64,000 bases of DNA from Sulfurovum indicum (GTDB lineage Bacteria > Campylobacterota > Campylobacteria > Campylobacterales > Sulfurovaceae): the NCBI RefSeq assembly GCF_014931715.1, contig NZ_CP063164.1:1798001-1862000 (forward strand), read 5' to 3'. Within the stretch, counting starts at the first letter, position 1, and every line of letters begins with the position of its first letter. The notes beneath the pieces are model-generated. The model saw nothing but the letters and a program-made list of their open reading frames with translations, was not told the origin of the DNA and did not search any database. The position numbers and the translations under genes were made by a program. This document shows, in pieces, positions 6,681 through 57,993 of this stretch.

Positions 6681-6695
6681 TCTCTCTATTATAGC

Positions 6696-7142
6696 CTAAT
6701 TGCCTGCAAAGGAAAAAAAAGTGAGATTATAGAACATATGCAGAATGATACTTGGAGTCACTATCTCAAATCTCTCTTTAAAGTAGCCAAAGAGAAGAGA
6801 AGGGAAAATAACCAGAAGCGCCCATACCGGCTCATGGTGAACAAAGTGCATCAGAACAAAGAGGAGTGAAGTCAGCAGGTTGGCAACGGATAGACGTAAA
6901 AACAAATTCCGATATACCGTTTTTTTGGCGATATACTCCTGGATCACCCCGCGAAATGTCAACTCTTCAACGACCGGATAAAGAAGAACAAGGAAAAAAA
7001 ATGACTCGGGATCATCCAAAAGCCAATAAAGATCCTCTGTTTTCTGTTGAAAGAACCCAACATACAACAGAGAAAAAACAGGAGCAGCCAAAAGTGCTGC
7101 TCCGTATTGCACAAGTAACGATACTTTCTCTTTGTGCATCAA
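6696..7142 (-). CDS. CPBP-family (Abi/glutamic) intramembrane protease, probable sorting-signal processor
   Basis: The 148-residue membrane protein has about four hydrophobic helices and the CPBP/Rce1-like motifs: EELTFR (Glu59, Glu60, Arg64), a His in LMHF (about 99) and HMFYN near the C-terminus (about 135-139). It begins 2 bp after the stop codon of the S8 protease gene, so the two are co-transcribed. That protease ends in a Cys-bearing sorting signal. In JDVT-CTERM systems such a signal is paired with a dedicated CPBP protease (MrtJ), so this protein probably cleaves its neighbour's tail in the membrane. The pairing is inferred from position. Confidence 0.82.
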   Translation of the reverse strand: MMHKEKVSLLVQYGAALLAAPVFSLLYVGFFQQKTEDLYWLLDDPESFFFLVLLYPVVEELTFRGVIQEYIAKKTVYRNLFLRLSVANLLTSLLFVLMHFVHHEPVWALLVIFPSLLFGYFKERFEIVTPSIILHMFYNLTFFSFAGN

Positions 7143-15551: not shown

Positions 15552-15612
15552 TCCTTAAAATCGACTGGTCGAACACTTCCAAAACAGTTGACGGATCACG
15601 CATAGGATATGC

Positions 15613-16626: not shown

Positions 16627-17205
16627 CTATTTTCCCTTTAGTGTGGAATGTTCAAGCAGTTTTGCCAGCATGGAAAGAGAGGAACGTCCATCGATCAGTG
16701 CCAATTTGGATTTTGCCTTTTCCATATCTCCGGCTTTGATCTCGATATATGCCTCTTCAAGATACACCAGTTCTGTATAGAGTTTTGAGTCAACCGGCTT
16801 TTTCTCTATTGCACCGACTGTATATCTGCTCATATCTGCGATAATATCATTTTTACTGTCACTGACACCGGCAAGTCTCTTTATATCTTTTGTCTTTGCT
16901 GCCTGTGAGAATATATAGACTTCATGGAGCGCCGGATTATTTTCTTTCAATACAGAAAGTGCCTCTGTGTCATTGGGGTTGTTCTGTAGTGTCAAAAGTG
17001 CCTGGTTTGCCGCTTCAAGCTTGGATTGCCGTACAGCACTCCAGCCTGTAGTCACTACAAAGAAAAGCAAAGCAGCTCCGACTGCTCCCCAGACAACAAT
17101 TTTATACTTCTTGTAAAGCGACTCCAGCTTAAAGGCACTCTCCAACACTTTCTCATCACCACTCAACTCAGTTTTGACATATTTGACATCATCTTTAATA
17201 CTCAC
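16627..17205 (-). CDS. YfgM-like membrane-anchored TPR protein
   Basis: The 192-residue product has one N-terminal transmembrane helix (VVWGAVGAALLFFVVTTGW, about 35-53) and then helical repeats of TPR character (AYIEIKAGDMEKAKSKL). YfgM is a periplasmic-facing TPR protein linked to the Sec translocon and envelope chaperones. The gene is immediately upstream of a BamB-like gene, as in proteobacteria. The N-terminal cytosolic segment is acidic and basic mixed. Family call is by topology and context. Confidence 0.7.
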   Translation of the reverse strand: MSIKDDVKYVKTELSGDEKVLESAFKLESLYKKYKIVVWGAVGAALLFFVVTTGWSAVRQSKLEAANQALLTLQNNPNDTEALSVLKENNPALHEVYIFSQAAKTKDIKRLAGVSDSKNDIIADMSRYTVGAIEKKPVDSKLYTELVYLEEAYIEIKAGDMEKAKSKLALIDGRSSLSMLAKLLEHSTLKGK

Positions 17206-17234
17206 GTAGTGCTCCCTTCTGTTTTATTCATACT

Positions 17235-17240
17235 ATTATA
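17235..17240 (-). promoter_or_regulatory. extended -10 box for yfgM-bamB
   Basis: TGGTATAAT on the minus strand is an extended -10 element about 30 bp before the yfgM-like start codon. Confidence 0.5.
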
Positions 17241-17316
17241 CCAACTTGGCATTAAGAGAAGCTCTAATCACAGATAATACCTGGTAATTGGTTTTTCCTA
17301 TATGTTCGGGATTACC

Positions 17317-17589
17317 TTAAGGGCACCTCTAATAACCCCATACGCCCATAATGGGTTTTGCAGATGTGAGATTTTGCAAGAGGCTTTCAAGTCCTAGCCA
17401 AAGCTAAGACGATGGAAGCATCTTGTGAAAGATCACGTCTGCAAAGCCCACCCTTTGGGCAATGCCGGCTTTGCCCTATGCGGCGTTACACTTTTTCGAC
17501 TTAGCTACGGCTAGGTCTGTAAAGTGTGCCTTGCCTAGAACAAAGCCAGCAATGTTATGAGCATATGGGGTTATTAGAGGTGCCCTTAA
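17317..17589. mobile_element. MITE-like palindromic element, copy D
   Basis: The 26-bp terminal inverted repeats (17317-17342 and 17564-17589) are identical. They include TA near the edges; 267 bp lie between the TAs. The ends read AAGGGCACCTCTAATAACCC, unlike copies A-C, but the inside has the same plan: a long hairpin (about 17352-17449), a compact hairpin GGGCAATGCCGGCTTTGCCC (17457-17476), GCGGCGTTA, and a hairpin with tip GACTTAGCTACGGCTAGGTC. No open reading frame is present. With the flanking 110 bp it fills the gap between the yfgM-like gene and mutS2, and its edge supplies the mutS2 stop codon. Confidence 0.85.
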
Positions 17590-19826
17590 AGCTCTACCAC
17601 TGTTATACCCAGATTGCCAGGCATACGGTAGAACTTCTGGATCTTAGGATGTTTTTTAAGATATTCGGTTACCAGCTTTGCCAAGACCCCGCCTCCTGTT
17701 CCATGAATGATCTGCACTTCGCTTAGACCGTTCACCAGTGCATCAGAAAGGAACTTGTCAACCGTATCGATCGCTTCATCCGCATACATTCCCAGAAGCT
17801 TGACAGAGACAGAAGCACCGCTCTTTTCCACCTGGTGGGTCGCTTTTTTCGGCTTAGAAGGTACTTTGAGCTTTGGTGTCTCTTCTCGTTTTTTCAACTC
17901 TTTTAGCGGTACCCTCATTTTCAGTCCGTCCACAATGATTGTGGCATCTTTTCCCCGGATAGAAAGCAGTTCACCTTTGTGGGAACGGTATTTAACCTTG
18001 TCCCCTTCCTTCAATGGCTTGCTCTCTTTGATCTTGGCCTCTTTCACCTCTACCTGTTTGCGCTTATGCGCTTCATTGAGCAGACGCCGCCCTTCGGTCG
18101 ACTCCTTTGCCTTCAGTGCTTCGCGTGCCTTCTTTGTTGCTGCATTGTAGCGGTTCTCAAGTGTTGCCAGTGCCTTACGGTGCTGCTCTTTAAGACGTTC
18201 TTCTTCATTGATGAGCTTCTGTCTCTGCTTCTCGACTGCTTTAAGCTCACTATCGATCTTCTCTATCTTCTGACGCATCTCACGCTCAAGTGAGGTCGAC
18301 TTCTCTATGAGCTCATTCAGGTTCTCCTTGTCCTCACCGTAGACCTTCTTCGCCTCTTCGACAATGACAGGAGGTACGCCATAGCGCTGAGCTGTCTCAA
18401 AAGCGTAACTCTTACCAATACTTCCCTGGAGAAATGTATAGGTCGGCACCCGCCGCTCCTCATCATAAAGGGCTGCTACCAGTTCCACCTCATCATCACT
18501 GGCCATCAGAGACGCCAGACGTTTGTGGTGGGTAGTGACCACAAAGTGGATCCCCCGTTTCTTCAAAGCTTCAAGCATGACACGAAAGAGAGATGCCGCC
18601 TCATCAGAATCGGTTCCCAGCTCAATCTCATCCACACCGACAATAGCATCCTCTTTGGTGAAGAGTTTGGCGAACTCCTGCATACGACCGGCAAAAGTTG
18701 AAATATCATTTTTGACCGACTGAGGATCATCAATGACTGCTTCGATACTTTTGTAGTGTCCTACCTTCGTACGGGCGGCATCACACTTGAACGGAAGAAG
18801 ATATTTGCTCATATAGACCGCTGCAAGCAATGACTTGAGCAGCATAGTCTTTCCTCCGGCATTCACTCCGGTAACAAGCAGAATGGGTTTTGACATATCA
18901 ATACTCACCGGTACCGGATCTTCTATGGCCGGGTGGGCGAAGTCATGCAGTACAACTCCTTTGCGCTTTGACGGAAGCACGAATTCATACTCTTTTGCTC
19001 TGGCGAAACTGACACGTGCCTGGTAGTGGTCAAATCTGTCGTAGGCTTTATTGATAAAATCAAGAAAACGCTCCCATCTGAAAAAAGTTGCCGAGATCTC
19101 CTTGCAATAGCGCCATATCAGCTCCGAGCGGTTGCTCAGCAGTGCAGCCTCTTTCTCTTTCAGATGGGATACTGCCTGGGGGACAATGTAAAAAAAACCT
19201 GCCGAACTGCGCCCTGTAACCGTGGCTTTAATGGCATGATTAAAACCTCCGCGCACCAACAGTGTCTCTTCACCGTTTTGTAAGTGTACCTGGGTATCAA
19301 CAAGATAGTCTCTGAGTTTCGCAGAGTGTGTCAAACGGTAAAGTGTCTCTTTGATCTCCGACTTGTTACGCTTGATGGCACGTTCAAGACTCAGTAGTTC
19401 AGGATCACGCTCCGGATTGATCTCCCCCTCTTCAGTAAAATACCCGATGATCTCCATGATCTCTTCGGGGATCTCGATCTGCCGTACCCACGAACCGAGC
19501 GGTTCTGGCAAAGAGAGTGTCTTTAGCTTGTTGAAATAGGAGACCATTATCACAAAAGCGTAGATCTCTTCCAGTGCCAGTACACCCTGTTTTTTAATGA
19601 GATTGAGTTCTCTGTCAAGGTTCGGAGTCTTCTCCGGCGGGGGGAACTGTACAGAAGAAAGCGCCTGAATATATCGGTAGTGCTGATTAATATCTCCCAT
19701 CATTGCTACAGACTTTTCACGTGCGAAAAACTGCTTGAACTGACGGACATATCCGTCCAGATCCAGTTTCTGTACGATCGACTTTTCACCTACCTCTTGA
19801 GACACTGTTTTCCTTCTGTAATTCAT
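17586..19826 (-). CDS. mutS2: MutS2 ATPase/endonuclease
   Basis: The 746-residue protein has a MutS core and clamp region, a Walker A motif GVNAGGKTMLLKSLLAAVYM (about 325-345), Walker B VGVDEIELGTD, a long coiled coil (about 500-620) and a C-terminal Smr nuclease domain with VQIIHGTGGGVLAKLV. MutS2 suppresses recombination, or in other species rescues collided ribosomes. It lacks the mismatch-recognition domain of MutS1. Its stop codon lies in the terminal repeat of element D, and a sequence like that repeat's end lies just upstream of its start (19845-19858). Confidence 0.93.
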   Translation of the reverse strand: MNYRRKTVSQEVGEKSIVQKLDLDGYVRQFKQFFAREKSVAMMGDINQHYRYIQALSSVQFPPPEKTPNLDRELNLIKKQGVLALEEIYAFVIMVSYFNKLKTLSLPEPLGSWVRQIEIPEEIMEIIGYFTEEGEINPERDPELLSLERAIKRNKSEIKETLYRLTHSAKLRDYLVDTQVHLQNGEETLLVRGGFNHAIKATVTGRSSAGFFYIVPQAVSHLKEKEAALLSNRSELIWRYCKEISATFFRWERFLDFINKAYDRFDHYQARVSFARAKEYEFVLPSKRKGVVLHDFAHPAIEDPVPVSIDMSKPILLVTGVNAGGKTMLLKSLLAAVYMSKYLLPFKCDAARTKVGHYKSIEAVIDDPQSVKNDISTFAGRMQEFAKLFTKEDAIVGVDEIELGTDSDEAASLFRVMLEALKKRGIHFVVTTHHKRLASLMASDDEVELVAALYDEERRVPTYTFLQGSIGKSYAFETAQRYGVPPVIVEEAKKVYGEDKENLNELIEKSTSLEREMRQKIEKIDSELKAVEKQRQKLINEEERLKEQHRKALATLENRYNAATKKAREALKAKESTEGRRLLNEAHKRKQVEVKEAKIKESKPLKEGDKVKYRSHKGELLSIRGKDATIIVDGLKMRVPLKELKKREETPKLKVPSKPKKATHQVEKSGASVSVKLLGMYADEAIDTVDKFLSDALVNGLSEVQIIHGTGGGVLAKLVTEYLKKHPKIQKFYRMPGNLGITVVEL

Positions 19827-44760: not shown

Positions 44761-45186
44761 TTAGTTGACGGCAATACTTTTCGCCTTGCGTGACTCTTCT
44801 TTCTCTAACGAAATATAAAGTCTTCCATCCTCATACTTGGCATTGATCTTCTCTTTATCAATCCCTTCAGGCAGAATGAAGCTTCTTGAAATTATACCAA
44901 AGCTACTCTCGCAGAGGTAATAGTCCTCTTTTTTCACTTCATGCTTCATCTTTCTAACCGCTTTGACCGTTAGAATATTGTCTTCCAGCTGCAGTTGGAT
45001 ATCTTCTTTGTTTACACCGGGAAGATCAACCTCTATGGCAAAACCGTCACTTCCTTTTTTTGCCAGGTTGGCAAACGGAAGGTGGCTGGCAACATTCGCA
45101 AAGGTTTCTTTCGCTACTTCCAGCCCTTTTTCAACTTTTTCTTCGACTGTATTGGCTACTTCTTTTGCTGTTTTTACAACATCCAT
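44761..45186 (-). CDS. small heat shock protein, Hsp20 family (second of two)
   Basis: The 141-residue protein has an alpha-crystallin domain (about 45-135): FAIEVDLPGVNKEDIQLQLE, shown here up to 20 residues, SFILPEGIDKEKI and the KYEDGRLYISL motif. The N-terminal arm is atypical, Lys/Glu/Ala-rich (AKEVANTVEEKVEKG), unlike the paralogue upstream. These holdases bind unfolding proteins. It is 23 bp downstream of the other Hsp20 gene; the two differ enough to be separate subtypes that may co-assemble. Confidence 0.9.
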   Translation of the reverse strand: MDVVKTAKEVANTVEEKVEKGLEVAKETFANVASHLPFANLAKKGSDGFAIEVDLPGVNKEDIQLQLEDNILTVKAVRKMKHEVKKEDYYLCESSFGIISRSFILPEGIDKEKINAKYEDGRLYISLEKEESRKAKSIAVN

Positions 45187-45209
45187 TTCAAACCTCCTTA
45201 CAGAAAATC

Positions 45210-45653
45210 TTACTTGATCTCGATCTTTCTGGGTTTATTATCTTCTTCTTTAAGTTTTGGAATGGTTACCTCAAGTACACCGTCTTTTGATTCAGCATGA
45301 ATGTTCTCTACATCTATCTTCTCCGGAAGCGTAAAACTTCTGCTGAATTTTCCATAGCGGCTCTCTACTTTATAGTAATCATCCTCTTTCACCTCATCTT
45401 TGTATTTTCTCTCACCCGAGATGGTCAATACATTATCTTCGGTCGTGATCTCTATATCCTCTTTTTTGATACCGGGGAGATCCAACTCGACATGATAGGC
45501 ATCTTCACCCTCTCTTGTATTCACTGCCGGGATGAATGATGCAATGCTGCTATCTTCTTTCACCGGATCAAACTGGTTCATCAGAGAGTGAAGCACCTCA
45601 AATCCTTTTCTAATATCCAGATCATTATATGGGTTATATCTTGTTACCAACAT
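45210..45653 (-). CDS. small heat shock protein, Hsp20 family (first of two)
   Basis: The 147-residue protein is a class A-like bacterial sHSP: N-terminal arm MLVTRYNPYNDLDIRKGFEV, alpha-crystallin domain with VELDLPGIKKEDIEI, RSFTLPEKIDVENI and the ESKDGVLEVTIPK motif, then a short IEIK tail with the I-x-I anchor. AAGGAGTC precedes the ATG. A hairpin (45670-45683) lies in its leader. It follows the yfdX gene by 94 bp and is probably in the same operon. Confidence 0.92.
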   Translation of the reverse strand: MLVTRYNPYNDLDIRKGFEVLHSLMNQFDPVKEDSSIASFIPAVNTREGEDAYHVELDLPGIKKEDIEITTEDNVLTISGERKYKDEVKEDDYYKVESRYGKFSRSFTLPEKIDVENIHAESKDGVLEVTIPKLKEEDNKPRKIEIK

Positions 45654-45669
45654 TTCTGACTCCTTCTGC

Positions 45670-45683
45670 TACCCTTGAGGGTA
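45670..45683 (-). promoter_or_regulatory. hairpin in the hsp20 leader
   Basis: TACCC and GGGTA pair around a 4-nt loop, about 8 nt upstream of the AAGGAG of the first hsp20 gene. It may be an intercistronic processing or stability element. It does not pair with the Shine-Dalgarno site, so a ROSE-type thermometer is not supported. Confidence 0.4.
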
Positions 45684-45747
45684 CCTTTGTTTTTTTATTA
45701 TTTTATATCATTTCTCTCATTTTCAATGCTACCTAAGTTGCATTTGT

Positions 45748-46641
45748 TTACTTTTCACTGAAAGAAATGACCTTTGATTTGAACTCTTTGAGTTTCTCCG
45801 TCAATGATTCAAAGAGTTTTTCTGCTTTATTTTTGCCTTTGATCTCTTTTTGTACTTCTTTTATCTTTTCATGGAGCATTTTATATGTCGTTGCACTTTC
45901 ACTCACGTAGCCAAGCTTTTCTGCTACATCCAATGCATCTGATGCTGCATCCAGATACTTCAGTGCTCGTTCTTTGTCCTCTTTCGCAATGCGTGATGCT
46001 GCATTGATCAAATCTGCACTTTCAAGCAGCGGAATAGGCACGATCTCTGTTACTTCGGTAAAGGTACTCAAAGCGATATAAAGCACCTCCTTTGCTTTCT
46101 CAGGTTTGTTGTCATGCACATATTGTGCTGCCAGCTTCAGCGCATCCGGATAAGAGGCAAGCGGCAGGCTCAACACAGTAATATCGATCTCGCTCACCAG
46201 CGGGATCATCAGTGCTCTTGCCTCCTGTACCTTTCCGTCATCAAGCATCTTTTTGACTCTTTTAAGTGTGATATCAACATCCTTTGCCGTACCGACGAAC
46301 TCCTGTACTCTGATCAGATTATTGACCGGCAGAAGTTTTGGCGCATCTTTGGCTGCCAGGATCACTTCCAGTTTACCCAGTGCTTTTTCCAGATCTTCCG
46401 TTGCCTTTTTGGCATCTTTGTGCTCCAGGTCGATCACTGCACGCTGTGCAAACTTTAATGACTCAATTGCTTCTGCTGCAAGCTTTTTCTGATGATTCCT
46501 TGCATCCTCTTTGGCATTACTGATCGCAATCTCTTTAACCTCTTTTACCGTTGCATCTTTGGCTGCCTGCTCTTTGGCAATACCTGCCGTTCCCAACAAA
46601 AGTGATGCTGTGATTGCCGAAAGTAGTAGCTTTTTCATCAT
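45748..46641 (-). CDS. YfdX-family periplasmic stress protein
   Basis: The 297-residue protein has a signal peptide (LLLSAITASLLLGTAGIA). Helical repeats follow with the YfdX pattern: DARNHQKKLAAEAIESLKFA, then LMIPLVSEIDITVLSLPLAS and AAQYVHDNKPEKAKEVL. YfdX proteins in enterobacteria are tied to acid and multidrug stress; the molecular role is poorly known. It is the first gene of the yfdX-hsp20-hsp20 group. The last ~50 residues form an extra Lys-rich helix. Confidence 0.8.
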   Translation of the reverse strand: MMKKLLLSAITASLLLGTAGIAKEQAAKDATVKEVKEIAISNAKEDARNHQKKLAAEAIESLKFAQRAVIDLEHKDAKKATEDLEKALGKLEVILAAKDAPKLLPVNNLIRVQEFVGTAKDVDITLKRVKKMLDDGKVQEARALMIPLVSEIDITVLSLPLASYPDALKLAAQYVHDNKPEKAKEVLYIALSTFTEVTEIVPIPLLESADLINAASRIAKEDKERALKYLDAASDALDVAEKLGYVSESATTYKMLHEKIKEVQKEIKGKNKAEKLFESLTEKLKEFKSKVISFSEK

Positions 46642-47499: not shown

Positions 47500-48255
47500 T
47501 TAGTTTCTCATATCTAATTCTATCCCATTCCAGCCAAATATTTGCAATACTCGTTCAAAATATGTATCAAATCCTGCCTCTATAAGAAGAGACTCTTCTG
47601 TTACCGGATGCAGCAGTCTCATCCGGTATGCATGCAGAAGCAGACGATGTACATCAAATTTCTCTCTGAAAAGTCTGTTGTGCTCTCCCCGGCCATGTTT
47701 GGTATCTCCCACGATAGGATGGGAAATATGCTTCATATGACGGCGCAGCTGATGCTTTCTGCCGGTTTTCGGGTATAGCGATACCAAAGAGTAGCGTGCC
47801 GCAGGATATCTGCCTACCTGATAAGGCAACTCTACCGTAGCAAACCGTTCATACTCCGTCAGTGCCTCCTGCTCCTCTTTGGTAATACCGGATTTTTTCT
47901 GGGCTTTGGTATCGAGCATCTGTTTTAAAGGATGGTCTATAAGCCCTTTCTCCCGGATATACCCTCGGACCACCGCCAGATACTGTTTCTCTACTTCCCC
48001 GTTCCGGAAAGCTTCTGAGAGCTTTTGTGCGACCGTCTCATCCAATGCAAAAAGCAGTACACCCGATGTCGGTTTATCCAAACGGTGTACCGGATAGACA
48101 TACTGCCCTATCTGATCACGTACCTCCTGCAGTGCAAAGCGTGTCTCATGTCTGTCTATGGGAGAGCGGTGTACCAGCAAACCGGAGGGTTTGTTCACTG
48201 CAACGATATACGGGTCCCTGTAGAGGATTTTCAGACAACAGGACTTATCGGACAT
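47500..48255 (-). CDS. RluA-family pseudouridine synthase, TruC-like
   Basis: The 251-residue protein has the RluA catalytic motif HRLDKPTSGVLLFAL (active-site Asp about 59) and the C-terminal GRKHQLRRHMKHISHPIVGD block. There is no S4 domain, which fits TruC (tRNA U65) better than RluC/D. The start overlaps the wecB stop by 1 bp, making it the last gene of the exopolysaccharide operon by position though not by function. Confidence 0.85.
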   Translation of the reverse strand: MSDKSCCLKILYRDPYIVAVNKPSGLLVHRSPIDRHETRFALQEVRDQIGQYVYPVHRLDKPTSGVLLFALDETVAQKLSEAFRNGEVEKQYLAVVRGYIREKGLIDHPLKQMLDTKAQKKSGITKEEQEALTEYERFATVELPYQVGRYPAARYSLVSLYPKTGRKHQLRRHMKHISHPIVGDTKHGRGEHNRLFREKFDVHRLLLHAYRMRLLHPVTEESLLIEAGFDTYFERVLQIFGWNGIELDMRN

Positions 48256-49394
48256 TACAGATGTGCTTCAATAAATGCTGCAATTCTCTCCGAAGCCTTG
48301 CCGTCTCCGTAAGGATTGTGTGCCTGACTCATTAAGAGATACTGCTGCGGATCATCCAATACTCTTTGTGTCTCTCGGACTATTCTCTCTGTATCGGTAC
48401 CGACCAGTCGTACTGTACCGATCTCCACTGCTTCCGGACGCTCAGTCTCATGCCGCATCAAAAGTACCGGTTTTCCAAGACTCGGAGCCTCTTCCTGTAT
48501 CCCCCCGCTGTCTGTCAATATCAGGTAGGCATGGTACATCAGATAGATGAATACTTCATAGTCTAACGGATCCGACAGATAGATATTCTCTATACCACTC
48601 AACATTTGCTTTACCGGTCCCTGCACATGAGGATTCAAGTGTACCGGATATACGATGTCAATACCGGGATTGCTTAATGCCAATGTTCTGATCGCTTCAC
48701 AGATATGGATAAAACCTTCACCAAAATTCTCACGCCTGTGTCCCGTGACCAGAATAAACTGCCGCTTGCCGAAAACCGGATAGGCAGCTTTTATCTTTGC
48801 AACGATCTCTTCACGCAATCTGCTTTCCTCTTCAATATGACGAAGCGTCATAAAGAGTGTATCTATCACCGTATTGCCTGTCACAACGATCTTCTCTTCG
48901 GCTATTCCGCTTTTTAGAAGATTCTTTTTAGCCTGCAGCGTGGGTGCAAAATGATACGTTGCCAGTACCGCTACCATTCTCCTGTTTCCCTCTTCCGGCC
49001 AGGGGCTGTAGATATCTCCCGTACGAAGCCCGGCTTCCACATGACCTACGGATATTTTCTGATAGAATGCAGCCAGTGCTGTGATCGAAGTGGTCGTTGT
49101 ATCACCATGTACCAGAACAAGGTCCGGCATATACTCCTGCAGTACCATTTTCATTTTCAGAAGAATACGTGAAGAGATATCATAAAGATCCTGATCAGGC
49201 TGCATGATATCAAGATCAAAATCCGGTTCGATCCCAAACAAAGCCAAGACCTGATCAAGCATCTGACGATGCTGTGCGGTCACACACAGTTTGACTTCAA
49301 CTTTTCCGCATAACTGCAAAGCCTTGACAACGGGAACCATTTTAATTGCTTCAGGCCTGGTCCCAAAAACCACCAATATTTTTTTCAAATACAA
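48255..49394 (-). CDS. wecB: UDP-N-acetylglucosamine 2-epimerase, non-hydrolysing
   Basis: The 379-residue GT-B-fold protein shows the family motifs VFGTRPEAIKMVPVV at the N-terminus, VHGDTTTTSITALAAF, HVEAGLRTGD, TGHRRENFGEG and DSGGIQEEAPSLGKPVLLMR (about 290-310). It interconverts UDP-GlcNAc and UDP-ManNAc. As the seventh gene of the exopolysaccharide operon it suggests that the polymer contains ManNAc or a derivative. No dehydrogenase (wecC) for ManNAcA is visible. Confidence 0.94.
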   Translation of the reverse strand: MYLKKILVVFGTRPEAIKMVPVVKALQLCGKVEVKLCVTAQHRQMLDQVLALFGIEPDFDLDIMQPDQDLYDISSRILLKMKMVLQEYMPDLVLVHGDTTTTSITALAAFYQKISVGHVEAGLRTGDIYSPWPEEGNRRMVAVLATYHFAPTLQAKKNLLKSGIAEEKIVVTGNTVIDTLFMTLRHIEEESRLREEIVAKIKAAYPVFGKRQFILVTGHRRENFGEGFIHICEAIRTLALSNPGIDIVYPVHLNPHVQGPVKQMLSGIENIYLSDPLDYEVFIYLMYHAYLILTDSGGIQEEAPSLGKPVLLMRHETERPEAVEIGTVRLVGTDTERIVRETQRVLDDPQQYLLMSQAHNPYGDGKASERIAAFIEAHL

Positions 49395-49400
49395 TCCTGT

Positions 49401-50315
49401 TTAAAATTCTTGAAAATAACCTATTCTGAAATTATACTTATCATATTCATTTTCTAAATTAAAATACCCTGTTTCTGCGTAAAATCCACTATCTTCATCC
49501 AGCCATTTTCGATATTTCAGGTAGACAGCAACCGTGTTCTGCTCTATCTGCTGATAATCCGGTGTAATGGTAGAGAGATAAGAGGGGTTGCCAAATGCAA
49601 CATCAACATAGACCCACTGGTCTTTCTCATGTCCGACACCCAGGCTGATAATATGTGAGGTAGAGTTGATTGAACCGGGATCACTCCGGTTGAAAAAGAT
49701 CCGATAACCTATATTGTAGTCGGCAGAATAGTAGGTAACCCCCAATGAACCGATGAAATCTTCATGTTCATCATGCTGATTGATATAAGCCAACCCTACC
49801 AGTCCGACAATATTTTTCTTCTCTCCAAAAAGATAGTTGAACTCATGATCTATCCTGAACGAAGGAAGATATATACTGTCTGTTCCGGCTGAGATCTGCG
49901 TATAGGTATAAAATCGTTCCATCCAGCCCTTATAAGCTCCGACCGCACCGAGAAAGCCGTTTCCTTCCACACGTGTTATCGCACTTCCCTGATACAGCAG
50001 TGTCAGATCATTCGATATCTTGTCGTAATAACGAAAATTCAAAGCTGTCCAGTCCTCATAGATACTGTAGGGGTCCAGATAGTCGTAGGAGATATCTACT
50101 TCAAGCCTGTCGTTTGGAAATCCAAAATTGATCTCTTCAATATCTTTTTGTGTACTTAGCTCTTCTGCCAGGGTACTGCGTTGCACCTCAACAGCATTAC
50201 GATAGAGTGAATCACCCTGAAAAGCTTCTGCAGATATACTTGCTGCTGCAATACATACTGCGAGCCTCATGCCTCTTGATATAAAACTTTTTTTTACTGC
50301 TTTCTCCATAATCAT
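49401..50315 (-). CDS. outer-membrane beta-barrel protein, YaiO-like
   Basis: The 304-residue protein has a signal peptide (VCIAAASISAEAFQG) and a short periplasmic segment. About ten or more amphipathic beta strands follow, ending in a C-terminal Phe (RIGYFQEF), the usual signature for outer-membrane insertion. Strand patterns such as NDLTLLYQGSAIT and TVAVYLKYRKW fit YaiO-type barrels. It is the likely outer-membrane component for polymer export or attachment. Export by this protein is inferred from operon context. Confidence 0.7.
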   Translation of the reverse strand: MIMEKAVKKSFISRGMRLAVCIAAASISAEAFQGDSLYRNAVEVQRSTLAEELSTQKDIEEINFGFPNDRLEVDISYDYLDPYSIYEDWTALNFRYYDKISNDLTLLYQGSAITRVEGNGFLGAVGAYKGWMERFYTYTQISAGTDSIYLPSFRIDHEFNYLFGEKKNIVGLVGLAYINQHDEHEDFIGSLGVTYYSADYNIGYRIFFNRSDPGSINSTSHIISLGVGHEKDQWVYVDVAFGNPSYLSTITPDYQQIEQNTVAVYLKYRKWLDEDSGFYAETGYFNLENEYDKYNFRIGYFQEF

Positions 50316-50320
50316 ACCTT

Positions 50321-51310
50321 TCAGAGATTGTTCTTCAGAGCAAAAGCTTTTGCCCGTTCAAAAATGATCAACTGTTCCATAGCGATCTTCGGATCATGGC
50401 CACTGACATATTTACCTCCCCTCTCTTGACGGAAGGCTTCCATATTGACTGCCTTCCTGTGGATCAGAGCTTTGATCTTCTGCCATAAGTTTTGAGCCGT
50501 CTCTTTACTCATCTGCTCACCCCAAAATGCCAAAATATGCATCTGTGCGAACATATCCGGATAAAAAACACTCTCAACACTTTCGTACCGTTTGTCCCCC
50601 TCTTTTGCCCAAGCAAAAAGACCGGAGGAACTATTGTATAACTGACTGAGTATAGCACTTTTAAGCTCATTTTGAAATGAAGTATACGCTTTGATCTGCT
50701 GATTCTCATCCTCTCTTCCAAACACTCTGGCAAGAGAGATATAGGCTTTCAGCCCCATCCATGACTCCACGTTATCCATAAGATATTTGATTTGATAGTT
50801 TTTAAACGGTAAAGCCTTTACCAATCCGTCACTGCTGTCACGAAGATGATAGATCAGATAAACCGTATCTTTCAAAGCAGGAAATATCTTTTCAATAAAC
50901 TGTTTGTCCCCACTCTTTTCATAATAGTCTGCAACCAGATAAAGGAACATGCCTGCATATCCGTCTGCAGAATCATATCGTGCATAGGAGTACTCCTTAC
51001 CATCATGAAGATCGATACTGTAATCATAAACCGTTCCGCTGACTCCGAAACAGTCTATTCTGTTTATATGGTCAACATACCATTGTATAAACCTCTTTAC
51101 CATATCATTATGGCCTCCATATCTCAACAGATCCAATGCATAGATCATAGTCATATAGGGAGAGACCCTATTCTTTTTCTCCAATGGAATGAACTTTTCA
51201 TTGATAGCAAGCAGCGGATGGTTCTGGTATGAAAAAAGCCTACTCATACCTAAAAACCATATGATAGTCAGTACTGTTAGTTTCTGTCGGTACATAATAG
51301 TATAATTCAT
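50321..51310 (-). CDS. predicted secreted (alpha/alpha)6-barrel glycosidase-like protein
   Basis: The product has up to 329 residues. It shows helical hairpins typical of six-hairpin glycosidases, with aromatic/acidic motifs YSYARYDSADGYAGMFLY and DNVESWMGLKAYI and a VFYPDMFAQM block. The exact GH family is not recognised. The start is uncertain: from 51310 it has a signal-peptide-like segment (LTVLTIIWFLG) but overlaps the deacetylase gene by 71 bp; from 51247 it overlaps by 8 bp but has no signal. It likely trims or degrades the polymer in the periplasm. Confidence 0.62.
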   Translation of the reverse strand: MNYTIMYRQKLTVLTIIWFLGMSRLFSYQNHPLLAINEKFIPLEKKNRVSPYMTMIYALDLLRYGGHNDMVKRFIQWYVDHINRIDCFGVSGTVYDYSIDLHDGKEYSYARYDSADGYAGMFLYLVADYYEKSGDKQFIEKIFPALKDTVYLIYHLRDSSDGLVKALPFKNYQIKYLMDNVESWMGLKAYISLARVFGREDENQQIKAYTSFQNELKSAILSQLYNSSSGLFAWAKEGDKRYESVESVFYPDMFAQMHILAFWGEQMSKETAQNLWQKIKALIHRKAVNMEAFRQERGGKYVSGHDPKIAMEQLIIFERAKAFALKNNL

Positions 51311-53075
51311 CCTTCTTGACTGTAGCAGGCAACTTTAGCGTTCTGTTCAAATACTGTTTTGGAACGGCTATCACCATTGATCCCACCCCCTCTTTTGAGC
51401 TGAGACCGATATCCAGTACACCATCATGCCAGCGGATCATTTTCTGTGTATTGATCAGACGCAAAAGAAAATCCCTAAAATAACTCATCGTCTCTACATT
51501 CAGTTCTCCATGTTCCTGTTTTGCAATACAGTAATCTATAAATTGTTTTGCTGCATTTTTATAGGGACCACGATAAATATCATACGGATGGGTATAAAAG
51601 AGTCTGACAACACGATTTTTAACTGTATAATCAACCAACTCCCGCAACATATCTGCGACATCCTTATCTGACACTTTCCCTTTGTCAAACTCATACAGGG
51701 ATGCCTTGTTTCCGTATACAGCTACAGGAAAGGCAATGATATTTCGTGAAAGCATTTTGTTCTGATAGAATGTTCTGTTTGGAGAAGAACCGATATCTCC
51801 TGTATAATAGTAACTCTCCATACCAAGCGAGGCCAGTATCTCAACCGATTCCGGCTGGGGAAATACACCATTTGGAGCAGAATACTCTTTTATGGGATAG
51901 CCGGTGATCTTTTCAAGAGCCCTGTTGTTTATCTCAATATTCTTTTTAATCCCTTCCTTATCCAGTTTTCCTTTCTGTATACGATCGGCAAACCCGTTAT
52001 GAAGCCAGCCTCCATGTGATCCTATGATGCCAAAACGCATTAGATCTTCTACAATCTTGTGTCCTTTTCCTTCAGCATCAAATCCGGCATTATCTCCCGG
52101 CACATAACAGTCTGGACCTGCCGTAATGTGAATAGAATACTTCAGTTTTGACGTAATATATCCATGGGTGATGAACCAGGGAAGTGAAGCATGTTCTTCA
52201 TTGGAGTCAATATGCAGATTAAGTACAAGACCCCCTTTTGCATCAGGAGATGATACGATATGGGGAACCTTTACCATTTTGAACAAAAATGTTCTTAACA
52301 CACTTCTTAAAAGCAGATCGTCACCGTTACCTTTCAAGGATGCCAGAGGAAGATTTACAAAAAGCAGCTCTCCTTTTCCGATATGCCTGCCTGAGAGAAG
52401 AGGTACTTTCTTCTTTGGTCCCTTTCCTGTGGCATAGATCCGGGATTCTTCTGTCTCCACCGTATACATATATGCATACGTATAGGTCAGTGTACCGTAT
52501 CTATATCCTGTAATGTTATTGTTCTCATCACATTTCCCCCGGGGGATTCCAAAATAATCAGCATCCTCTCGGCTGCTGAAAGTCACCGGACCATACAGAA
52601 AAACATCTCTGCTCTTTTTATTTTCAACTACTCTTTTGATGCCGGCAAGCTTATCAAAAAGTGCGCCCTCATACCTGTATTTATTCTCTCTGTTCTGACT
52701 CCCCGCATCAGAAGCCAGCTGAACAGATCCACCCGCTTTGATATAGGAGGCTATCCATCCTGCAGTATCGGTACTCAGAACAGCAGCTGCACTGTCGGGA
52801 TAAATAATTGCCGGTTTGCTTTTAAGTACATCTTCCGGATCGGCTGTAATAAGTTTTGCATTGGAGATGACAAGACAGGGCACCCCCTCTTCTTCAAGAA
52901 CACTTAAAAATGCACGGACACCAAGGCTCTCCTTTTCCCCCTCCCCATATACAATAACAACTGCTGTCTGATCATTGATCAGACGGTCAACTTTTGCCTG
53001 TTCCTGATAGGTATAGACTCCGATCAACACGGTCCCTATGATCAAAAAGATACCATACAGAAACTTTTTGGTCAT
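51240..53075 (-). CDS. exported polysaccharide deacetylase (CE4-like) with N-terminal flavodoxin-like domain
   Basis: The 611-residue protein has an N-terminal signal anchor (FLYGIFLIIGTVLIGVYTY). A Rossmann/GATase-like domain (about 35-270) follows, with AVVIVYGEGE and AIIYPDSAAAV. Then comes a deacetylase-type barrel with LHIDSNEEH (metal Asp), SHGGWLHN (metal His pair) and EYSAPNGVFPQP, and a short C-terminal beta domain. It probably removes N-acetyl groups from the polymer in the periplasm, as PgaB or PelA do. It overlaps the bactofilin gene by 4 bp. Confidence 0.8.
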   Translation of the reverse strand: MTKKFLYGIFLIIGTVLIGVYTYQEQAKVDRLINDQTAVVIVYGEGEKESLGVRAFLSVLEEEGVPCLVISNAKLITADPEDVLKSKPAIIYPDSAAAVLSTDTAGWIASYIKAGGSVQLASDAGSQNRENKYRYEGALFDKLAGIKRVVENKKSRDVFLYGPVTFSSREDADYFGIPRGKCDENNNITGYRYGTLTYTYAYMYTVETEESRIYATGKGPKKKVPLLSGRHIGKGELLFVNLPLASLKGNGDDLLLRSVLRTFLFKMVKVPHIVSSPDAKGGLVLNLHIDSNEEHASLPWFITHGYITSKLKYSIHITAGPDCYVPGDNAGFDAEGKGHKIVEDLMRFGIIGSHGGWLHNGFADRIQKGKLDKEGIKKNIEINNRALEKITGYPIKEYSAPNGVFPQPESVEILASLGMESYYYTGDIGSSPNRTFYQNKMLSRNIIAFPVAVYGNKASLYEFDKGKVSDKDVADMLRELVDYTVKNRVVRLFYTHPYDIYRGPYKNAAKQFIDYCIAKQEHGELNVETMSYFRDFLLRLINTQKMIRWHDGVLDIGLSSKEGVGSMVIAVPKQYLNRTLKLPATVKKDELYYYVPTETNSTDYHMVFRYE

Positions 53076-54106
53076 TTCACCTCTCCAACCTCATCGGTCA
53101 GAAGATAATTAAAAATGGCTACATGCTCAGCCAGCGTGATCATCTTTTTCGATATAACCGATTTTGGATGTTCACTTGTCCCGATTTGGGTATAAGAGTC
53201 TATCTCAATGGATGTTCTGGAGAACAGGTTGCCGACCACAAAACAGTTCTTCCCTATCTTTATGCTCCCTTCTGCAATAATATTGCCGTCTATAAAACAG
53301 TTGTCTCCCACCTCCACATCCCCATTTGATTTGATATTCCCGAATATCTTCGTATTCTGTTCCAGCATTAAATAGCCCTGTGTCACCAGAGAGTGGAACA
53401 GTATCGTATCTTTCTTGAGTGTATATTTCTTATCCGGTACATAGAGAAGATTCTCATCAATGCTTGGCTCGTCCAGGTGCTCTTCCCTTATGCCTTCAAG
53501 GTTTTTTCTAAAAGAGAAAGTATGGGATGTCAGAACCGGATACCCGTATAAGCGGCGGAAACTGACGCCTTTCTCCAAATGCATTGTACTCGTGCTGCTG
53601 GCTATATTGATGTGCGAATACCTGCCCACAGTAATTGTACTCTCCGAATCGATCCATCTGACAATACAGTTCTCCTCTCCGAGTATCAGCTTCTTTTGTG
53701 ATTTGATCACCCTGGCATAACAGCGGTTTCCAAACTCCAGTTCATCTCGGGAGATCACCTCTCTTTCAAACCGTGATCCGTCCGGTACCTTTGCTTTACC
53801 GACAATATAGACCATATCCTTATAGAGAGATCTGTGAAATGTCTCTCCTACAACCTCCAGTTTACCAAGTTTCTTACTATTGAGAATTTCCCCCGGCTTT
53901 AATACCTTGTCACCAAAAGAGTCATGAAAGTACTGATCGAAATATTTTGCAATTGCCCTGGGATCTTTGGTATATTCCAGATTTACCGGCAACGGTTCAT
54001 ATCCTTTTCTGTCCCATACGGCATAGATAACCGGAGCCAACGGGATCAACATCAATATGATCGCACCAAGAGTGTACTCCAAAAGAAGGATATCAACACT
54101 ATTCAT
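53072..54106 (-). CDS. membrane-anchored bactofilin-like (polymer-forming) protein
   Basis: The 344-residue protein has one N-terminal membrane helix (YTLGAIILMLIPLAPVIYAVW). A cytosolic middle region follows, then a C-terminal right-handed beta-helix with short repeats: KIFGNIKSNGDVEVGDNCFI and GNIIAEGSIKIGKNCFVVGN. Bactofilins self-assemble into filaments that place cell-wall or polysaccharide machines. Here it could scaffold the synthase at the membrane. It is fused to a membrane anchor, which classical bactofilins lack. Overlaps link it to the synthase (8 bp) and deacetylase (4 bp). Confidence 0.78.
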   Translation of the reverse strand: MNSVDILLLEYTLGAIILMLIPLAPVIYAVWDRKGYEPLPVNLEYTKDPRAIAKYFDQYFHDSFGDKVLKPGEILNSKKLGKLEVVGETFHRSLYKDMVYIVGKAKVPDGSRFEREVISRDELEFGNRCYARVIKSQKKLILGEENCIVRWIDSESTITVGRYSHINIASSTSTMHLEKGVSFRRLYGYPVLTSHTFSFRKNLEGIREEHLDEPSIDENLLYVPDKKYTLKKDTILFHSLVTQGYLMLEQNTKIFGNIKSNGDVEVGDNCFIDGNIIAEGSIKIGKNCFVVGNLFSRTSIEIDSYTQIGTSEHPKSVISKKMITLAEHVAIFNYLLTDEVGEVK

Positions 54107-55373
54107 AACGCTCTCCTCTTTGACGTCTTTTCGTTTTATCCCACTCGGGCTCGCTTTTACGGAAAAGGTCTTTTACAGCATCCCAAAACCCCAAACTTAC
54201 ATACAGCATATAGAATACAAAGTTAAATGCAAACATAGGAATAAGCCGTAAAGCTTTTGTTCTGCCGTCTATAAAGTTCGCTACACCGATCTGAAAAAAC
54301 GGGGCAAAGTTTCCAAATGCCCCAAGTGATACAATAAAGAGTAAAAAAACTATACCTGCAAATATCTCCAGATTGCCGGAGAGGAACAGTACTACAGAGC
54401 TCAAGATCCCCAGGAAAAGCAGCGTAGGAAGCATATAGATAAAGATCAACAGAAGTCCGTCCAGCTTTTTTCTGAAACTCAAATATCTGGATGTCAGCAG
54501 CGGGACAAGATATTTGAACATGACCTGGTTATGTCCCCTTGCCCATCTTCTTATCTGTTTTGCTCTGTCAATCCAGTTCTCAGGCATCTCTTCATAACAC
54601 TCAGCACGATTCGCATACGCTACATGCCAACCGTTTAGGTACATCTTGTAAGTAAGCTCCGTATCCTCGGCCAATACCTTCGGATCGAATCCTCCCATTT
54701 TAAGTAGAGCCTCCTTTCTGTATGCACCTACAGTTCCGCCATACTGTGGGATCAGATCCATATTGTAACGTGCCTGCTGATCAACCTGGTAGCCGCCGGA
54801 ACGTTCAAGTTCCAGCATCATCGTCAGCATATTGGTCCCACAGTTCTCAACCAGAACTCTTCCCATCACAGCTCCCACTTCCGGGTCTTTAAATCCGATG
54901 ACAAGTTCTCTGATAATCCCGTCCGGCGGCTGATAGTCTGCATCAAAAACGACAATGATCTCACCTTTGGCAACATTCATTGTGTCATTAAGACTGTTCG
55001 CTTTCCCCGGTTTTTCATCCTCACTCAGCCGGTGGTATGGCCTGATATGGTCATATTTGGCAGCATAACTCTCAAGGATCTCTTTTGTGCCATCATCAGA
55101 ATGGTCATTGACAGGAATGATTTCAAGTTTCTCTCTTGGATAGTCACTCGAAACCAGTCTGTCAAGTATCTGTTTTGCAACCAATTCTTCATTTTTCATG
55201 GGTATCACTACCGTTACCATCGGAACATCCTTGTCCAAAATATCCTGATAGTAGAGCTTTTGTTCACCGAAGAGTCGATTGTAGGTAAATATGAAGTGTC
55301 TGATCATATAGAGTGTCACAATTATAATGAATATAAGCAAATATATTTTTAAAACAGGGATTACCACTTCCAT
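54099..55373 (-). CDS. processive family 2 glycosyltransferase (PgaC/HAS-like polysaccharide synthase)
   Basis: The 424-residue protein has an N-terminal membrane helix (IYLLIFIIIVTLYMIRHFIF) and a GT2 catalytic domain with the substrate Asp residues in PVNDHSDDGT and VFDADYQPP. The acceptor Asp is in LAEDTELTYKM, and the processive QIRRWARGH motif (QxxRW) follows. At least four C-terminal membrane helices form the channel. It polymerises a UDP-sugar, probably GlcNAc or ManNAc given wecB, and moves the chain across the inner membrane. Confidence 0.9.
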   Translation of the reverse strand: MEVVIPVLKIYLLIFIIIVTLYMIRHFIFTYNRLFGEQKLYYQDILDKDVPMVTVVIPMKNEELVAKQILDRLVSSDYPREKLEIIPVNDHSDDGTKEILESYAAKYDHIRPYHRLSEDEKPGKANSLNDTMNVAKGEIIVVFDADYQPPDGIIRELVIGFKDPEVGAVMGRVLVENCGTNMLTMMLELERSGGYQVDQQARYNMDLIPQYGGTVGAYRKEALLKMGGFDPKVLAEDTELTYKMYLNGWHVAYANRAECYEEMPENWIDRAKQIRRWARGHNQVMFKYLVPLLTSRYLSFRKKLDGLLLIFIYMLPTLLFLGILSSVVLFLSGNLEIFAGIVFLLFIVSLGAFGNFAPFFQIGVANFIDGRTKALRLIPMFAFNFVFYMLYVSLGFWDAVKDLFRKSEPEWDKTKRRQRGERYE

Positions 55374-56125
55374 TCTTCATCCTTTTTTTGAAATAAAACA
55401 GCACTTTTATAGAGAAAATAACTATACGCGGATACAAAGAAGATAAAATCCAGATAGAGTGTAAAGAACATAATTGGCGCCATCACAATTGAGAGCTGTG
55501 AAGTCAAAAGCACAACCAAAGCATACCGTACAAGACTGTAGAACATATAGTAGCCCACCAGCAAAACAAGTGTCATACCCTTCATCCAGTATGCTGCCGG
55601 GGTCAGTGCTACTGCCGATGCGGTGATCACGAATGAAAAGAACATCAATCCTATGTGTGCCGTTGTATAAAGTTCAAAATACTCAATAAACGAATAGGGA
55701 AACTGCCCCCCCAGGAATATAAAGTAGAGAAGAAAAACAATGAAGATCAGAATGAAGAAGTTGAGCCACATAGCAATATTGTAGGGGATCACTCTCTGTA
55801 TACGCAAAATATAGAACAATATGACCATTCCTGCCAATATAAAGAAAAGATAGATTGGCTGTGTATGCACAAAGGAGAGCTTTAGCAGGGTAACCGGAAA
55901 ACCAAAAATATCTACAACTGTTGTAGCTGCATCAATATTCGCTTCCAAAAGTACATTTTTGAAATAGAGGGAAAATGTATTGATAAGATACTTTGCATAG
56001 AGATATACTGCTGCAGCGGAAAAGAGAAAATAGACAAGTAGTTCGGAAAAAAAGTGCAACTTGCTTATTTTTAACCGTCTGTATGATCGATGTGGAATAA
56101 TATTCTGAGCCTTACACTTTTGCAT
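55361..56125 (-). CDS. polytopic inner-membrane protein of the exopolysaccharide operon
   Basis: The 254-residue protein starts with a basic cytosolic segment and has about six or seven hydrophobic helices (FFSELLVYFLFSAAAVYLYA, YLFFILAGMVILFYIL, MWLNFFILIFIVFLLYF and others), ending in charged FQKKDEEWKW. I do not recognise the family. It is the first gene of the operon and overlaps the synthase gene by 13 bp. By position it may be a synthase partner, as PgaD is for PgaC, though it is much larger. Confidence 0.7.
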   Translation of the reverse strand: MQKCKAQNIIPHRSYRRLKISKLHFFSELLVYFLFSAAAVYLYAKYLINTFSLYFKNVLLEANIDAATTVVDIFGFPVTLLKLSFVHTQPIYLFFILAGMVILFYILRIQRVIPYNIAMWLNFFILIFIVFLLYFIFLGGQFPYSFIEYFELYTTAHIGLMFFSFVITASAVALTPAAYWMKGMTLVLLVGYYMFYSLVRYALVVLLTSQLSIVMAPIMFFTLYLDFIFFVSAYSYFLYKSAVLFQKKDEEWKW

Positions 56126-56147
56126 CTCTGCCTCCTTACTCTAAAAT

Positions 56148-56153
56148 ATTATA
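56148..56153 (-). promoter_or_regulatory. extended -10 box of the exopolysaccharide operon
   Basis: TGCTATAAT on the minus strand is an extended -10 element 23 bp before the first gene's ATG, followed by AAGGAGG. It is the only promoter seen for the eight overlapping genes down to 47500. Confidence 0.6.
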
Positions 56154-56221
56154 GCATAACTAATCATTTTTTTTTACTAATTTAATAAATAATCTTAATA
56201 AATAAAAAAGTATTCTTCTGC

Positions 56222-56313
56222 TATAGTTAAAAAAAGCGGGTAACCAAAACTGCAGAAACAGGCTCTGACAGTATGGAGTTACCCTGACAGATAGGTGTCA
56301 ATAAGGTATCATC
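56222..56313 (+). promoter_or_regulatory. promoter and structured 5' leader of the CotH gene
   Basis: TATAGT (56222-56227) predicts a start near 56234. The ~80-nt leader then begins with GGGTAAC (56238-56244), which pairs with GTTACCC (56278-56284) around an inner region. CTGACAG occurs twice (56265-56271 and 56284-56290). A small hairpin GACA-GATAGG-TGTC precedes the AAGG Shine-Dalgarno site. It resembles a cis-regulatory RNA but I could not match it to a known class. Confidence 0.4.
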
Positions 56314-57993
56314 ATGAAATATTTATTCATTTTTATCACCTCAGTCTTTATCCTCGTCGGGTGTGGCGGAGGGGGAGACTCGGACGGCTCGATCTATCCG
56401 CGCAGCGAAACCATTACCATATACCCGGCAGCCAACCTTCCAAAACTATATTACCTTCCCTCCTTTGAGCTTAACGGAACACTGCAGTATCATCTTGATA
56501 CGACTGTAACCGAAGGAAATGTCTCACTCATTGATCAACTATCGGGTCTTATCTCCTACCAGGCAAAAGATGAAAATACCACTTCGGATCAGTTTCTCTA
56601 TACCGTTAGCGACAACAGTACGGGACAGATCAATGTGACAGTTCAGCTTTCAATAGGAGCGATCCCTGTAACGATAAACGGTACAGAAGAGAATAACTTC
56701 AGCTCCAATTTGCCGCTTGTTATCGTCGATACAGGTGACCAGTCGATCCCGGATGAGCCGAAGATAAAAGGAGGGATGGCCGTCATTGAACCTGACCCGA
56801 CAACAGGCAGGACATCTCCGCACATGTCAGCTCAGTACAGTGGACATATTGCCATTGAGATCAGGGGAAGCTCTTCCCAAATCTATCCTAAAAAACAGTA
56901 CAGTGTCGATACCGAGACATGGAACGGAGAGGATGATGACATCCCGCTCCTGGGAATGCCGGCAGAACATAAATGGATCCTCTATGCACCCTATGCAGAC
57001 AAGTCTCTGATGCGAAACTATCTTGCCTATCACAAAAGCAGGGAGATCAATTCAACGCAGTATTATGCCGTACGTTCCCACTTCGTGGAACTGCTGGTAC
57101 GAGAAGAGGACCACTACCGGTATGATGGAGTTTATGTCCTTATGGAAAAGATCAAACGCGATGCGAACCGTCTTGATCTTGCAAAACTGACAGAAACAGA
57201 GAATCAGTTGCCGGACATTACCGGCGGATACATCTTCAAACAGGATGGGGACCCCGATCCGGATGAAGATATATTTGCCGGGATCACAGGCACACGCTTT
57301 ATCTATGTCTACCCTAAAAGCAGCAAGATCACCGAAGACCAGAAGTTCTACATAGAAAACTATGTACAGACTTTTGAATATGCACTGGATGCAAACGACT
57401 TTAACGATACAGCCTCGTCAAACTATTATGGCAATTTTATCAGCGAAGAGGATTTTATCGTCCACTTTCTCTCCAGAGAGTTCTTTATGGATGTCGATAC
57501 CTGGCTTTTTAGTGAATATCTCCATAAGGACAAGGATGCGAAGCTGGCACTGAGTGCTGTCTGGGACTTTAATGCCGGCATGGGGAACAATGATTTCCGT
57601 CTTAACGGAACAACACAGGGGTGGGTTTATGATATCATGCGTACAGACTACCCTGAAAAGGCCCTCAGGAAATGGCTGGACCGCCTTATGAGCGATCCAG
57701 CCTTCAGACAGAAGGTCAAAGATAAATGGAGCAGCCTTAGAAGCACCATCTGGTCTGATGCCAACTTGACGGTATTTATCGACAATACCAAAGCCATGCT
57801 CGATGAGTCTGCCGCAAGGAACTTCCAACGGTGGCCGGAAGTACTCGGTCAATATGTCTGGCCTAACAGAATGGCCTGTGATGACGGCGGTATACCGGTC
57901 TACTGTCCGACCTTTGAACGTGCAGTCAATGAACACCTAAAGAGCTGGCTGCTTGAACGTGCCGTCTGGATCGATACCAATCTCACAAACTAA
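56314..57993 (+). CDS. CotH kinase-family lipoprotein
   Basis: The 559-residue protein has a lipoprotein signal (YLFIFITSVFILVGC, lipid Cys 17). A ~100-residue beta domain with cadherin-like ENTTSDQFLYTVSDNSTG comes next. A CotH catalytic region follows, with RGSSSQIYPKKQYS, HKWILYAPYADKSLMRN, YDGVYVLMEKIKRD and SAVWDFNAGMGN. CotH proteins are atypical kinases that phosphorylate secreted or coat proteins. It is divergent from the exopolysaccharide operon and separated by 188 bp, so it may act on surface proteins of the same matrix. Confidence 0.85.
   Translation: MKYLFIFITSVFILVGCGGGGDSDGSIYPRSETITIYPAANLPKLYYLPSFELNGTLQYHLDTTVTEGNVSLIDQLSGLISYQAKDENTTSDQFLYTVSDNSTGQINVTVQLSIGAIPVTINGTEENNFSSNLPLVIVDTGDQSIPDEPKIKGGMAVIEPDPTTGRTSPHMSAQYSGHIAIEIRGSSSQIYPKKQYSVDTETWNGEDDDIPLLGMPAEHKWILYAPYADKSLMRNYLAYHKSREINSTQYYAVRSHFVELLVREEDHYRYDGVYVLMEKIKRDANRLDLAKLTETENQLPDITGGYIFKQDGDPDPDEDIFAGITGTRFIYVYPKSSKITEDQKFYIENYVQTFEYALDANDFNDTASSNYYGNFISEEDFIVHFLSREFFMDVDTWLFSEYLHKDKDAKLALSAVWDFNAGMGNNDFRLNGTTQGWVYDIMRTDYPEKALRKWLDRLMSDPAFRQKVKDKWSSLRSTIWSDANLTVFIDNTKAMLDESAARNFQRWPEVLGQYVWPNRMACDDGGIPVYCPTFERAVNEHLKSWLLERAVWIDTNLTN

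Follow-up and report, generated by a model that had tools for sequence, protein, structure and literature searches.

A gene set pairing a processive GT2 synthase with a bactofilin-like protein in Sulfurovum indicum: a candidate exopolysaccharide secretion system

The locus described here lies in a 64,000-nucleotide stretch (the window; positions 1,798,001 to 1,862,000 of the forward strand of NZ_CP063164.1) of the 2.2 Mb, single-contig genome of Sulfurovum indicum. It carries, at 48255–56125 on the minus strand, a gene set for a putative synthase-dependent exopolysaccharide secretion system (Table 1). The initial annotation of this DNA had described an operon of eight genes, including one for the pseudouridine synthase TruC. 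All eight open reading frames are present at that place, on the minus strand and densely packed, and overlaps of 4–13 nt join the genes of the membrane protein and the GT2 synthase, of the synthase and the bactofilin-like protein, and of the latter and the deacetylase. However, TruC (357 bits with NF008321; cut-off 328) does not belong to the set. The distance between truC and smpB is 70–98 bp in three Sulfurovum genomes that lack the set (1.3–1.5 kb in two further such genomes) and 9.8 kb here, where wecB lies in the gap together with the cassette and a CotH-like gene. Because truC lies close to smpB in genomes without the set and the insert separates them here, TruC is a resident housekeeping neighbour, and the insertion point is between truC and smpB. 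The gene list was also incomplete, as it lacked the CotH-like gene, which co-occurs with the set. No foreign base composition was seen (42.3% GC for the cassette versus 43.8% for the window). The divergent intergenic region likely holds the promoters of both the cassette and the CotH-like gene; a promoter and terminator scan of the locus gave a signal little above that of shuffled sequence.

Table 1 Features of the locus in window coordinates.
Feature	Position	Strand	Basis
WecB, non-hydrolysing UDP-GlcNAc 2-epimerase	48255..49394	minus	TIGR00236, 481 bits (cut-off 210)
YaiO-family outer-membrane beta-barrel with signal peptide, putative export pore	49401..50315	minus	TIGR04390, PF19413
Secreted putative glycosidase, (alpha/alpha)-type, accessory	50321..51310	minus	weak profile matches
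Membrane-anchored periplasmic polysaccharide deacetylase (putative)	51240..53075	minus	PF01522 near-match; model; structural matches
Bactofilin-like beta-helix protein with N-terminal transmembrane helix	53072..54106	minus	PF04519 best family match; structure model; charge pattern
Processive GT2 polysaccharide synthase	54099..55373	minus	family scans, motifs, hydropathy, tree
Polytopic inner-membrane protein, first gene	55361..56125	minus	hydropathy; orthologues in every cluster
Divergent AT-rich intergenic region, 30% GC	56126..56313		composition; alignment with relatives' loci L024 and L025
CotH-kinase-like lipoprotein, partner in the Campylobacterota version	56314..57993	plus	PF08757, 6e-41

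The same gene set was found elsewhere. Four other Sulfurovum genomes hold it in the same gene order, and, among 100 relatives, the four with a full-length gene for the bactofilin-like protein are also the four with a full-length deacetylase gene (chance of coincidence 2.6e-7, assuming independent genomes). The epsilonproteobacterium SZUA-451 has the membrane protein, GT2 (61% identity), bactofilin-like protein, deacetylase (41%) and YaiO. Plasmid pMTS1 of Cupriavidus sp. P-10 carries, in a different order, wecB and the genes for the deacetylase, GT2 (46%), bactofilin-like protein, glycosidase, YaiO and membrane protein. The Escherichia version (plasmid pRHB18-C04_2 of E. fergusonii; E. coli A41, NCTC8623 and AH19B041) comprises the bactofilin-like protein, WecB, YaiO, the membrane protein, an acyltransferase, the glycosidase and GT2 (40–44%); the island is present in 3 of 5,426 complete E. 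coli genomes. The named-genome scan with the GT2 alignment used narrow patterns and reached Campylobacterota only, and the relatives in other phyla were drawn from plasmids and E. coli genomes. The weakest homology links are those of the membrane protein and the bactofilin-like protein (E 3e-4 and 3e-7, respectively, between Cupriavidus and E. coli); their orthology is also backed by position and by motifs (HRS and FPY; an N-terminal helix ending in LPxxPAxxE). Recurrence of the same genes in Cupriavidus and in Escherichia islands indicates that the system is real and conserved, and its distribution is patchy and transfer-like.

Several of these loci carry additional genes. The islands of E. 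coli A41 and NCTC8623 also contain IbrB-like and phosphoadenosine phosphosulfate reductase genes; that of NCTC8623 adjoins tRNA-Phe and an integrase, and in A41 the cluster is followed by a polysaccharide deacetylase gene with a frameshift and by a GT4 gene. Upstream of the CotH-like gene of SZUA-451 (locus positions 14994–18700) are genes for two lipoproteins, one of the GH26 family and one with PKD repeats and a DUF2334 deacetylase-like domain, which are probably further polymer-modifying enzymes.

The GT2 protein (424 aa) scored above the PF13641 and PF00535 cut-offs, in agreement with its first assignment as a processive synthase, and contains no additional domain. It has one N-terminal transmembrane (TM) segment and several C-terminal ones, and its catalytic motifs (DAD 144–146, AEDTEL 235–240 and QxxRW 273–277) are invariant in the alignment of the GT2s of the set. 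The closest curated synthase is PgaC (30% identity), but with 132 bits the protein falls well short of the PgaC equivalog cut-off of 422. In the tree, the nine GT2s of the set form one clade (support 100/100) separate from PgaC, NfrB, BcsA and YaiP, and other plasmid-borne GT2s also fall outside it. The polytopic protein, which has an N-terminal HRSYRRL motif and an FPY motif, matched nothing in Pfam or NCBIfam, and comparison with PgaD revealed no relationship.

These results bear on whether the locus is a diverged pga operon for poly-N-acetylglucosamine (PNAG). The two share a plan, namely a GT2 of the PgaC-type fold, a membrane partner, a periplasmic deacetylase and an outer-membrane barrel for export. 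However, the set proteins gave no significant match to E. coli PgaA, PgaB or PgaD, and wecB and a bactofilin gene are present. The GT2s form a clade apart from PgaC, and the system is therefore not pga; a diverged pga operon is hardly credible, and a PNAG operon was ruled out after its defining features had been sought. The view of the initial annotation that the plan resembles pga without PgaA and PgaD was thus sound, and the distinction of the system from pga is supported.

The bactofilin-like protein has 344 residues, with the bactofilin-like segment at the C-terminus, and no second such protein was found in the genome. Among the five orthologues scanned, PF04519 (cut-off 27.9) was the top Pfam family for all, with scores of 21.9 (window), 27.2 (SZUA-451), 22.2 (Cupriavidus), 22.1 (E. 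coli) and 31.0 (E. fergusonii); only the last exceeds the cut-off. The predicted structure (mean predicted local distance difference test score (pLDDT) 83) consists of a helix at residues 3–31 and a beta-solenoid at 74–343, which bears out the anchored beta-helix proposed at the outset, and within the solenoid a right-handed beta-helix core of bactofilin size (roughly 100 residues) is predicted. In VIA-align superpositions of the predicted model, residues 225–340 matched BacA (2n3d; 103 of 103 residues, root-mean-square deviation (rmsd) 2.9 Å, Z 8.4) and the Thermus bactofilin (6rib; rmsd 2.1 Å, Z 7.9). A Foldseek search with the model returned nothing at E < 0.001. All seven orthologues bearing the helix have no positive residue before it and two to four after it. 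Because the positive charges occur only after the helix, the anchor should be oriented N-out/C-in, with the beta-solenoid in the cytoplasm. N-terminal TM helices occur in about 3.2% of bactofilins, mostly from Gammaproteobacteria (PMC12448750). The bactofilin-like protein is supported as a constant component of the system across Campylobacterota, Beta- and Gammaproteobacteria.

Alternatively, this protein may be a static structural or regulatory subunit of the synthase, such as a co-polymerase or gate, or a left-handed beta-helix acyltransferase. We take this possibility seriously without favouring it. The protein of the window scores under the Pfam cut-off, an additional solenoid precedes the bactofilin-like part in the Campylobacterota and Cupriavidus forms, and weak sequence matches to the hexapeptide proteins LpxD and GlmU were obtained; against these stand the rank of bactofilin as best family in every orthologue scanned and the passing score in E. 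fergusonii. The acyltransferase version is unlikely because, in addition, the model superposes far better on bactofilins than on LpxD and LpxA (about 11 Å). The static-subunit version may hold.

The deacetylase model (pLDDT 74.5) comprises an N-terminal alpha/beta domain, a CE4-like barrel and a beta-rich C-terminus, consistent with the periplasmic deacetylase with an extra N-terminal domain first suggested. PF01522 (Polysacc_deac_1) matched residues 340–420 slightly under its cut-off (21.1 versus 23.1), and a sequence search of the PDB found no match. The CE4-like barrel was clear in structure comparison (Z up to 19). Among the matches listed, only Agd3 (CE18; 6nwz, 473 aligned residues, Z 15.2, rmsd 7.4) and PelA (9cgy, 441 residues, Z 13.9, rmsd 7.8) were near full length; the top Foldseek match was human NDST1. 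Residues H288, H354-x4-H359, E462 and H496 are conserved in all seven sequences and D290 in six. The putative glycosidase gave weak matches to alpha-rhamnosidase, mannosylglycerate hydrolase and trehalase profiles and none to GH8/BcsZ. No family was above its cut-off, so that the earlier label "glycosidase-like" holds only as a weak resemblance. A PDB sequence search gave helical-repeat noise and weak trehalase or rhamnosidase matches. D107, D110 and DNVE 173–176 are invariant in the alignment, and the Cupriavidus and E. coli proteins are 32% identical (E about 1e-47). The gene is present in Cupriavidus and Escherichia and absent from three Sulfurovum copies and SZUA-451.

The YaiO barrel (304 aa, without tetratricopeptide repeats (TPRs)) has orthologues in all clusters. 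As with the epimerase, its family profile confirmed the first assignment (TIGR04390, 123.6 bits versus a cut-off of 32, 1.2e-35; PF19413, 2.2e-25), and the Cupriavidus YaiO reached 219 bits with TIGR04390. Of six genomes carrying the set, two of which are incomplete with the set on short contigs, four have the CotH-like gene, as against none of 16 genomes lacking the set (Fisher 0.002, the genomes not being independent). In SZUA-451 it lies directly upstream of the set on the same strand. In genome G044 it is absent at that position, as the membrane protein gene is only ~350 bp from smpB. The adjoining kinase lipoprotein, together with the occurrence of NodC-type enzymes in the same GT2 family, could suggest that the cluster makes a lipid- or protein-attached glycan or a short chitooligosaccharide-like signal instead of a free exopolysaccharide. 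We consider this improbable, as a synthase with processive motifs and TM segments at its C-terminus, encoded in one operon with a barrel, fits long-chain secretion.

Taken together, we think it probable, with moderate confidence, that the set encodes a synthase-dependent exopolysaccharide secretion system in which a polymer of N-acetylmannosamine (ManNAc) is made, modified and exported and the bactofilin-like protein organises the synthase. The analysis establishes which genes are present, their conservation, the separate clade of the GT2s and the site of insertion, with folds predicted; the substrate, the polymer chemistry, the order of steps and the bactofilin role are inferred. WecB would make UDP-ManNAc, and GT2, with the polytopic protein as inner-membrane partner, would polymerise the amino sugar and extrude the polymer into the periplasm, by analogy with NfrB of NGR, the phage N4 receptor system of E. 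coli. In Campylobacterota and Cupriavidus the PelA/Agd3-like deacetylase would then remove part of the N-acetyl groups, while in Escherichia the acyltransferase may modify the polymer instead. The secreted glycosidase, where present, might trim chains, the polymer would exit via the YaiO barrel, and in Campylobacterota the surface CotH-like kinase would be attached to the system. The bactofilin-like protein would be anchored in the inner membrane with the beta-helix facing the cytoplasm, where it most likely polymerises and clusters or places the synthase. A ManNAc polymer, partial deacetylation and spatial control by the bactofilin are plausible. More tentatively, the membrane-anchored bactofilin may polymerise under the inner membrane and position the GT2 complex so that secretion of a ManNAc-based polymer is confined to defined sites of the cell; the set would then be a synthase-dependent class of its own, exchanged by transfer among Campylobacterota, Beta- and Gammaproteobacteria.

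Several observations weigh against this proposal. The window's bactofilin-like protein does not reach the family cut-off, and some other beta-helices tie with bactofilin in the structural match. YaiO is only a putative pore. The Escherichia clusters have the acyltransferase in place of a deacetylase. In the deacetylase, motif 1 is without its second Asp, the metal motif reads HGGWxH rather than HxxxH, and D290 is replaced by Cys in Cupriavidus; activity of the enzyme is thus likely but not certain. Finally, the genome encodes a second WecB orthologue (61%; 748133–749290), and the SZUA-451 cluster has no WecB, so the substrate could be UDP-GlcNAc. In that case the product would be a PNAG- or chitin-like polymer and WecB would serve another pathway, and the position of PgaC as nearest curated synthase agrees with this. 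We nevertheless regard it as unlikely. wecB lies inside the Sulfurovum, Cupriavidus and Escherichia clusters in differing gene orders, it was seen at the truC–smpB site only together with the cassette, and GT2 scores well under the PgaC cut-off and falls outside the PgaC clade. Furthermore, a WecB match of at least 60% identity was found in all genomes with the set that offer enough sequence (in G044 the contig is cut) and in few of the 16 without it.

We know of no cytoskeletal subunit in the known synthase-dependent exopolysaccharide systems (cellulose, PNAG, alginate, Pel and NGR), nor was one found in the papers searched. Here a relative of the bactofilin cytoskeleton accompanies the synthase in two phyla, and this built-in bactofilin is the feature that would surprise a specialist. 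With copies in Escherichia and Cupriavidus, laboratory strains could be used to test whether bactofilins organise the secretion of polymers. Should ManNAc be a component of the polymer, enterobacterial common antigen (ECA) and NGR would be joined by an additional WecB-dependent surface glycan. The suggestion of a system not yet named also stood, as no description of it was found in the literature searched, a search that left subscription journals and preprints mostly outside.

Elsewhere in the window, two Hsp20-like genes and a YfdX-like gene, named by eye, lie at 44761–46641 between ispE and a CRP-type regulator, and this stretch is conserved in a relative's locus (L025).

Among known proteins, bactofilins (BacA, CcmA and ThBac, and the TM-anchored CcmA of Proteus mirabilis) share the beta-helix core and inner-membrane attachment; the set protein differs in the extra N-terminal solenoid of the Campylobacterota and Cupriavidus forms and in its place in a polysaccharide operon. 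The deacetylase has the multi-domain architecture of PelA (Pel) and Agd3 (galactosaminogalactan). PelA has a His two residues ahead of the motif-1 Asp, a motif 3 without Arg and a Glu before the catalytic His (PMC12022489), and the set enzyme shares all of these, including the catalytic His. It differs from both enzymes in its low identity (7–12%), its metal and motif-1 residues and the absence of the hydrolase domain, and no other Pel genes accompany it. In the yaiO-yaiX-yaiP-yaiS cluster of E. coli K-12, a YaiO barrel, a GT2 and a hexapeptide/beta-helix gene also stand together, but the YaiO profile match is weak. YaiP is 24% identical to the set GT2 and lies outside its clade, which rules out the same system. 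In K-12 (locus positions 4845–6873), the acyltransferase-like yaiX beside yaiO and yaiP is interrupted by IS2, and the cluster perhaps represents a distinct polymer system that is now broken.

NGR of E. coli requires the GT2 NfrB, NfrA and, of the ECA genes, wecB alone, and a ManNAc polymer has been proposed from this requirement (PMC8669472, PMC8669469). The present set resembles NfrBA-YbcH/NGR in linking a WecB-type epimerase to a processive GT2 without the rest of ECA, and in having an outer-membrane barrel; wecB is often linked in NGR loci as well. A separate wecB-linked GT2 cluster on an Acinetobacter variabilis plasmid (NZ_CP104652.1, 3452–11074) encodes a protein similar to YbcH (25%, E 0.003), an outer-membrane protein with TPRs that resembles the N-terminal part of PgaA, and an unassigned 606-aa protein, and looks like an NGR-type system. 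In contrast to the set, NfrB has an MshEN cyclic di-GMP (c-di-GMP) domain, no NGR-type counterpart of which appeared in the family scan of the set proteins, NfrA combines TPRs with a large barrel, and NGR has no bactofilin, YaiO or CE-type deacetylase. BLASTP of the set GT2s against NfrB gave a best E of 0.02 for the Campylobacterota proteins and of 1e-6 for those of Escherichia. The WecB–GT2 logic of the two systems is the same, and their partner proteins are unrelated.

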